Source of the DNA: Synechococcus sp. MW101C3
Lineage (GTDB): Bacteria; Cyanobacteriota; Cyanobacteriia; PCC-6307; Cyanobiaceae
Length of the DNA: 64,000 nt
Assembly: GCF_002252635.1 (NCBI RefSeq)
Contig: NZ_NQKX01000006.1
Location: 124,001 to 188,000 of the forward strand
Reading direction: 5' to 3'
The translations under genes were made by a program, and so were the position numbers. The notes below the pieces were generated by a model, which was not told the origin of the DNA, did no database searches, and saw only the letters and a program-made list of their open reading frames with translations. Positions 28,015 to 29,363 of this stretch are shown piece after piece (the stretch's first letter is position 1; each line of letters starts with the position of its first letter).

Positions 28015-28749
28015 ATGGCCAGAGGGCACTGGTTGGATCCACTGGCGCGCCGCCTGCTGATCGCCACGGGGCAGATTGCGCCGCCGCCACCACCGCTTCG
28101 TCGTGAGCCGGCGTCATCGAACGCCGCAACAGATACAGCCGGGGCCGGTGGCGGCCCTGAGCCTGTCGGGGCCGACGTGGCCGTGGAACGGGAGCTGCTG
28201 GCCTTGAAGCTGAAGCAGAACCCTGGCCTGCGGCTGCGGGATGCCGCCCAGGTGCGCCACGCCGCCGCCCTGGGCTGGCGGTTGGATGTGAACCGCGCCA
28301 CCCCCGCCGACTGGCTGCGGCTGCCCGGCTGTGAGCCGCACCAGGTGGATCTGCTCTTGCGTCTGCAGGCCGGCGGCGTGCAGCTCAGCGGTGAGGACGA
28401 CCTGCAACGGTTGCTGGGCCTCAGCGACGCCCAGCTGCAGTGCTGGCTGCCACTGCTGGAGTTCCGCTGGTATGGGGAGCCCGCGCCGCTGCGGCCGGTG
28501 CCGCTGGATGTGAACCGCTGCAGCGTCGAACAGCTGCAGGCGCGGCTGCTGCTTGATCCCCCGCGTTGCCAGCGGCTGGTGCGCGAACGGGGGCGGGGGC
28601 CCTTTCAGGATCTCGCCGATCTGCAGCAACGGCTGCAACTGCCCCCCCACCTGGTGGAGGCCCTGATCGGCAAGGTGAGTTTCGGCCGGGGGCCGGTGGG
28701 GCCGGATCTGCCACGGCCGACACCGGCGCCACAGCGGCAGCGGCCCTGA
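28015..28749 (+). CDS. helix-hairpin-helix domain protein (ComEA-like)
   Basis: Encodes 244 residues without a signal peptide. After a Pro/Ala-rich N-terminus and a charged helix, two HhH modules are visible: RLDVNRATPADWLRLPG (about residues 89-140) and PLDVNRCSVEQLQARLL (about residues 163-218). Both carry the D-x-N-x-A/C block seen in ComEA-like HhH domains that bind DNA non-specifically. Lack of an export signal suggests a cytosolic DNA-binding role. It ends two bases before the GIY-YIG nuclease start, so the two are almost surely cotranscribed and may work together. Confidence 0.82.
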   Translation: MARGHWLDPLARRLLIATGQIAPPPPPLRREPASSNAATDTAGAGGGPEPVGADVAVERELLALKLKQNPGLRLRDAAQVRHAAALGWRLDVNRATPADWLRLPGCEPHQVDLLLRLQAGGVQLSGEDDLQRLLGLSDAQLQCWLPLLEFRWYGEPAPLRPVPLDVNRCSVEQLQARLLLDPPRCQRLVRERGRGPFQDLADLQQRLQLPPHLVEALIGKVSFGRGPVGPDLPRPTPAPQRQRP

Positions 28750-28751
28750 GC

Positions 28752-29363
28752 ATGGGCCTGCCGCGCCAGGGCCAGCTCGACCTGTTCGGCGCCGGGCCGG
28801 CGTCCGCCGCCGGCGACCACGTGCCCACGGCTCTGCCGTTGGCGCGCCATCAACTGCTGCGCTGGCAGCAGGGCCTGGCCGACTTTCAGCGTCCCCTGCA
28901 CGGCAGCGGGGCCGGTGTGGCGCAGCGCTCGCTGTTCGGAGCCGGCGGGACCGATGCCGCCGCCGCGCAGGCTGCCGTCTTCGATCCACTGGCGCTGGCA
29001 CCGCTCAACCTGCAGTTCTGGCGCTGGCCCGAGCCGCCGCAGCAGGGGGCGGCTCTGTATGTGGTGATGGACCGCCAACCCCAGCTGGAGCACCCCCTGC
29101 TGCTGTACGTGGGCGAAACCGGCTGCGCCGATCGTCGCTGGAAAGGCGACCACGACTGCAAGACCTACCTGGCGGCCTACGACGAAGCCCTGCGCCGCTG
29201 CGGGCTCGCCAGCGGGCTGAGCATCCGCTTCTGCAGCGACGTCCCCGGGGCAGTCAGGCCGCGCCGGGCCCTGGAGCAGGCGCTGATCCGCCGTTGGCAG
29301 CCCCCTTTCAACAAGGAAACGCGGCAGCGCTGGGCCACCCCCTTCACCGCCGATCCGGCCTGA
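28752..29363 (+). CDS. GIY-YIG nuclease with sliding-clamp-like motifs
   Basis: Encodes 203 residues. The N-terminal half carries QLDLF at residues 8-12, an exact match to the bacterial beta-clamp-binding pentapeptide, and a second variant QRSLF at residues 58-62. The C-terminal half is a GIY-YIG domain: ALYVV (Tyr103), LLYVGETG (Tyr119), DRRWK (Arg128/129), Glu175 in ALEQALI and Asn187 in PPFNKE supply the expected catalytic set. This would be a metal-dependent endonuclease recruited to replication or repair forks. It directly follows the HhH protein. It is not UvrC, which is about three times longer. The biological role is unproven. Confidence 0.85.
   Translation: MGLPRQGQLDLFGAGPASAAGDHVPTALPLARHQLLRWQQGLADFQRPLHGSGAGVAQRSLFGAGGTDAAAAQAAVFDPLALAPLNLQFWRWPEPPQQGAALYVVMDRQPQLEHPLLLYVGETGCADRRWKGDHDCKTYLAAYDEALRRCGLASGLSIRFCSDVPGAVRPRRALEQALIRRWQPPFNKETRQRWATPFTADPA

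Follow-up and report, generated by a model that had tools for sequence, protein, structure and literature searches.

The window analysed here, a stretch of 64,000 nucleotides from Synechococcus sp. MW101C3, contains the gene of a predicted GIY-YIG nuclease with two clamp-binding-like motifs in its N-terminal arm (Table 1). This protein is probably a repair endonuclease tethered to the DnaN clamp. The original prediction of a replication- or repair-coupled nuclease is supported by our analysis, in which the motifs proved to be conserved in orthologues and to be of the same type as motifs of MutS and UmuC. In the literature that we searched, no paper describes a GIY-YIG nuclease with clamp motifs; those on Prochlorococcus and S. 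elongatus that also mention GIY-YIG seem, to judge by their titles, unrelated. A conserved GIY-YIG family with tandem clamp motifs is apparently undescribed so far.

Table 1. Features of the HhH-nuclease locus (positions in the window; residues numbered on the nuclease)
Feature	Position	Strand	Basis
Tandem HhH protein, 244 aa, conserved N-terminal HWLDPLAR box	28015..28749	+	ORF, PF12836, AF2, Foldseek
Candidate GIY-YIG endonuclease with two clamp-binding-like motifs, 203 aa (ATG 28752, stop 29363)	28752..29363	+	ORF, PF01541 in orthologues, AF2 model, VIA-align
Clamp-binding-like motif 1, QLDLF, residues 8–12	28773..28787	+	Conservation against shuffles, column entropy
Inter-motif helix, residues 32–51	28845..28904	+	AF2 secondary structure, conservation
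Clamp-binding-like motif 2, QRSLF, residues 58–62	28923..28937	+	Conservation against shuffles
GIY-YIG catalytic core, residues 85–189 (Y103, Y119, R129, H134, E175, N187)	29004..29318	+	Invariance 82/82, UvrC alignment

As a single query, the window nuclease gave no Pfam or NCBIfam match, and its profile matched no sequence of a solved structure. PF01541 was matched by 61 of 70 orthologues (best 5.8e-6). An AlphaFold2 (AF2) model built from an alignment of 70 orthologues reached a pLDDT of 85. Foldseek gave weak matches when used alone. With VIA-align, the model was matched to T4 EndoII (Z 7.1), R.Eco29kI (Z 6.5) and the GIY-YIG domain of UvrC (Z 6.2, aligned to residues 85–189), and the ten top rows were all GIY-YIG nucleases, with Z between 5.4 and 7.1, although a Z below 8 is insufficient proof of a fold on its own. 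We then assembled a set of 170 orthologues, from which 82 non-redundant sequences of less than 65% identity were kept; in all of these, Y103, Y119, R129, H134, E175 and N187 are identical. The active site had been proposed to comprise Tyr103, Tyr119, Arg128/129, Glu175 and Asn187; this holds except for R128, which is variable (R in 30 orthologues, Q in 30, K in 17), so that R129 is the arginine concerned. Sequence, predicted fold and invariant active site concur, and together they clearly place the family in the GIY-YIG superfamily. The predicted nuclease very probably has DNA-cutting activity.

Both pentapeptides lie exactly at the residues claimed for them. The N-terminal 75 residues are poorly conserved apart from the two motifs and the helix between them, in which W38 and Q46 are invariant (82/82). 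We searched for QxxL[FLW] in the N-tail and in the second linker of 81 orthologues of less than 65% identity, and compared the counts with those obtained after shuffling each segment. Motif 1 was present in 79 of the 81 (shuffled mean 3.4, maximum 10) and motif 2 in 73 (shuffled mean 3.3, maximum 10), which shows that both are conserved as a type. Under a looser pattern, 78 of the 81 orthologues carry both motifs, among photosynthetic cyanobacteria and down to about 35% identity; one of the three exceptions reads QTSLP, which resembles the hexapeptide type of clamp motif. The Gln of motif 2 is kept in 80 of 82 orthologues. The Q, L and F columns of both motifs have 0.1–0.7 bits (0.1–0.5 for the key columns of motif 1), and the sampled linker columns flanking them a mean of 3.5 bits. 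Conservation and shuffles rule out that the pentapeptides occur by chance.

QLDLF as such is a local variant, as the window has RQGQLDLF where relatives have RQGELF. Outside the family of the window's genome (f1 in our comparisons; f5, f11, f15 and f21 are other families), motif 1 is most often QL[S/N/D]LF, whereas position 2 of the motifs in f1 is often Gly and not the Leu of the consensus. The published clamp-binding consensus is QL(S/D)LF (PMC9690074), and motifs of this type occur in a predicted disordered segment of the nuclease at two sites. AF2 confidence in the arm around them is low (pLDDT about 50–74).

Clamp clients of the same genomes carry comparable peptides. In f1, MutS is extended at its N-terminus, where it bears QGSLF, QGNLF or a similar peptide, and it has no C-terminal motif; MutS of the window genome (L257) carries QGSLF, and other f1 examples are L264, L265, L274 and L275 (among loci L257–L276). 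The C-terminus is the canonical place of the MutS clamp motif, and it is there that we find QLGLF in f11 and QLTIF in f21, in two full sequences only. The motif of MutS thus seems relocated, being N-terminal in f1 and C-terminal in f11 and f21. The motifs of MutS and of the nuclease also shift in parallel between groups, with QG[S/N]LF in f1 as against QLGLF or QLTIF in MutS of f11 and f21. The usual motif site of UmuC reads QxHL[L/F] or a near variant in most f1 genomes. DnaN retains the YLVMP and PNYxQLIP segments, which line the peptide cleft of E. coli DnaN. Since MutS and UmuC of f1 carry loose Q-x-x-L-F/L ligands, the nuclease motifs fit this style. The motif type shared with MutS and UmuC supports, but does not prove, a real clamp ligand in the nuclease, and we regard both motifs as candidate ligands which very likely bind DnaN.

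The window genome (3.03 Mb) has Synechococcus and Cyanobium strains as near relatives and, as more distant ones, small genomes that we call Prochlorococcus-like on the basis of their size and synteny. The nuclease is single-copy in all 60 f1 genomes that are at least 95% complete, and f1 is monophyletic in the nuclease tree (support 100/98). As far as sequences tell, its inheritance within f1 is vertical. Outside f1, the gene is patchy in cyanobacteria, and the sampled non-photosynthetic classes gave no convincing match. It is carried by 32 cyanobacterial plasmid records (Nostoc and others) and is often plasmid-borne in Nostocaceae. No relatives were found in phage and viral collections, where a phage library gave weak matches only, and a phage origin was rejected on this ground. 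Several broken pieces of the nuclease gene are present in each of three Nostocaceae-like genomes (G259, G222 and G450). On two Nostoc plasmids, a 204-bp ORF lies 3′ of the nuclease (L172:4575-4778 and L174:4576-4779), and the first of these plasmids also has dpdD (7-deazapurine DNA modification) nearby. A contig labelled MAG Rubrivirga sp. NP52 (L087) bears a typical picocyanobacterial HhH-nuclease pair; the label is most likely a binning error.

The HhH gene ends two bases before the nuclease gene, as originally noted (gap 28750–28751). PF12836 was found in 21 of 22 HhH orthologues, and the AF2 model (pLDDT 86) is rich in helix, with weak Foldseek matches to ComEA and T2SS K. In most picocyanobacteria examined, HhH lies directly upstream of the nuclease with a few-base gap or a 4-bp overlap; reading of the f1 sequences identified a DUF1825-like ORF upstream of the pair and pepA downstream. 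In f11, HhH is 0.5–0.8 kb from the nuclease, and in most other families its relatives are unlinked, either on another contig or far away. HhH relatives also occur in genomes without the nuclease. A profile search of the small Prochlorococcus-like genomes found no HhH gene, and these genomes keep the nuclease alone at the same site. No HhH is annotated beside the nuclease in three Nostoc plasmid regions. The nuclease therefore occurs in places where HhH is not linked to it, and its presence alone in small genomes, together with the lack of linkage elsewhere, argues that it is not an obligate partner of HhH. The predicted partnership thus stands for most of f1, where the two genes are coupled, and fails in most other families and in the small genomes that lack HhH. 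On gene order, the pair is an f1 operon and not a universal module. In one genome (G064, L040:788-2170, minus strand), HhH and the nuclease form one open frame of 474 aa. In the sister genome G010 (L307) they are two overlapping ORFs, and in L098 an ambiguous base lies at the junction. We did not retain the fusion as evidence of partnership: G064 is the one clean case, with G010 split and L098 ambiguous, and a sequencing error is possible.

We then analysed the mismatch-repair genes. MutS domain I is present in 37 of 37 f1 genomes. MutL was found in none of the 37 with its C-terminal (PF08676) and transducer (PF01119) domains, both of which match in control genomes, nor in any f1 genome of a 386-genome sample of the phylum. 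In contrast, MutL was found in 22 of the 23 cyanobacteria tested outside f1, and the single exception, the f21 genome G092, carries the nuclease. Excerpts of two earlier papers report that Prochlorococcus MED4 lacks MutL and MutH and that all cyanobacteria lack MutH; these excerpts name no incision enzyme for picocyanobacteria without MutL and MutH (PMC2921402, PMC5101192). NucS was considered as an alternative incision enzyme and rejected, as NucS_C (PF01939) gave no match in the window genome and, across 25 f1 genomes, a single weak one. The window nuclease itself falls outside the NucS/EndoMS class, having no Pfam match of its own and orthologues that match GIY-YIG. Many cyanobacteria have MutL together with the nuclease, or MutL without it, which indicates that the nuclease is not simply a MutL substitute. 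Loss of MutL with retention of the nuclease is seen in two lineages (f1 and G092), too few for statistics, and mutS was not found next to the nuclease in any locus read. Within MutL itself (L175–L193), photosynthetic cyanobacteria have EQHIAHERVLYE at the endonuclease metal motif where non-photosynthetic classes have DQHIAEERYIYE, a D-to-E change. We rejected the idea that cyanobacterial MutL lacks the endonuclease motif, EQHIAHERVLYE being the D-to-E form of DQHAxxERxxxE.

From these data we propose a mechanism in which the flexible N-terminal arm would offer its two Q-x-x-L-F peptides, one on each side of the short helix that is conserved, to the hydrophobic DnaN clefts, and might thereby occupy both protomers of one ring. 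So tethered, the nuclease would keep its GIY-YIG domain, at the C-terminus, on freshly replicated DNA and would incise this DNA during repair. HhH would serve as an accessory DNA-binding partner, useful yet dispensable. In picocyanobacteria, the most likely single job of the nuclease would be strand incision after mismatch recognition. MutS, with its N-terminal clamp-type motif, and the nuclease could share one ring, whose orientation would mark the new strand; the fixed orientation of the clamp has been proposed as the cue for strand choice by MutL. It is conceivable, though we hold it tentatively, that the nuclease performs the strand-incision step of a MutS-dependent, MutL-free mismatch repair in picocyanobacteria. 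With the same reserve, we suggest that MutS and a GIY-YIG nickase might both dock on the clamp through QGxLF-type motifs, the nickase replacing MutL and MutH for strand discrimination. The nuclease may also have an older and broader role in fork repair, which may or may not have gained importance after the loss of MutL.

The universality of the gene in f1, its vertical inheritance and its retention at the same site after the loss of HhH all support the clamp-tethered reading. On the other hand, QxxLF is a short motif, clamp motifs fit any fork-linked repair role, and the plasmid residence in Nostocaceae hints at other roles. If the protein is indeed tethered to the clamp, the chief alternative is a structure-specific nuclease (SLX1- or UvrC/Cho-like) that acts on branched, flapped or damaged fork DNA and has no special link to MutS. 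We give it considerable weight, if somewhat less than an even chance. It is in line with the inclusion of UvrC and T4 EndoII among the GIY-YIG folds, with the presence of the nuclease alongside MutL in many families, and with an f5 genome (G076, L058:2625-3206) where only 8 nt separate the start of the nuclease from a photolyase-like ORF upstream, a DNA-repair neighbour. HhH proteins often read DNA structure, which also counts for it. However, this alternative makes no special prediction of universal retention in genomes without MutL. In addition, uvrABCD has been reported to belong to the cyanobacterial core genes (PMC5101192), which would leave a further nuclease of NER type partly redundant.

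Two further explanations appear improbable. The Q-x-x-L-F islands could bind elsewhere in the nuclease or to some other protein rather than to the clamp, as the frequent Gly at position 2 and the low AF2 confidence in the arm, which leaves room for intramolecular docking, might suggest; but they match the QL(S/D)LF consensus (PMC9690074), are present twice and in disordered segments, and recur as a type in MutS and UmuC of these genomes, all of which makes this unlikely. It is also quite unlikely that a restriction-like or homing nuclease, serving a mobile element or plasmid maintenance, was fixed in a single family, with motifs that target replicating invader or plasmid DNA. The likeness to R.Eco29kI, the 32 cyanobacterial plasmids and the broken Nostocaceae copies would agree with such an origin, but in f1 the gene is single-copy, vertical, syntenic and universal, phage or viral relatives are missing from the collections searched, and its f1 neighbours are HhH, pepA and the DUF1825-like ORF, with no adjoining methyltransferase such as an Eco29kI-type restriction-modification system would have.

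Few phototrophs are as abundant as Prochlorococcus and Synechococcus, and the rate and spectrum of their mutations bear on evolution and ecology. A clamp-motif nuclease that is universally conserved in these ocean and lake cyanobacteria, which have MutS and lack MutL, is a testable candidate for the missing repair step, and the question of the missing incision in picocyanobacteria can now be addressed by knockout and mutation accumulation.

Among known systems, R.Eco29kI, a restriction enzyme, and T4 EndoII, a phage nuclease, are the best fold matches and are likewise stand-alone GIY-YIG DNA endonucleases, but share 13–18% identity with the window nuclease. The Nostoc plasmid proteins that NCBI annotates as "GIY-YIG nuclease family protein" belong to the same family, known by annotation only; those among the matches listed have about 45–51% identity to an f15 query, and they differ in being plasmid-borne and, in three regions, in having no annotated HhH neighbour. 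MutL resembles the proposed role of the nuclease in nicking the new strand under clamp direction after MutS, but has an unrelated fold; the nuclease has no ATPase, and MutL is absent from f1. EndoMS/NucS of Actinobacteria and Archaea is a clamp-tethered endonuclease with an [E/K][L/Y][T/R]LF or PIP peptide (PMC8228993), and resembles the window nuclease in bearing a clamp peptide in hosts without a complete MutS-MutL pathway. It has, however, a RecB-like fold and one C-terminal motif, and senses mismatches itself, independently of MutS, whereas the window nuclease has a GIY-YIG fold and two N-terminal motifs and occurs with MutS. NucS shows that mismatch repair can be carried out by an endonuclease that the clamp activates. 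Plant-type MSH1, in which MutS is fused to GIY-YIG (PMC12292046), couples mismatch recognition by MutS with a GIY-YIG nuclease and shows that such coupling is feasible; it is a covalent fusion, whereas MutS and the nuclease of f1 are separate proteins whose proposed meeting place is the clamp.
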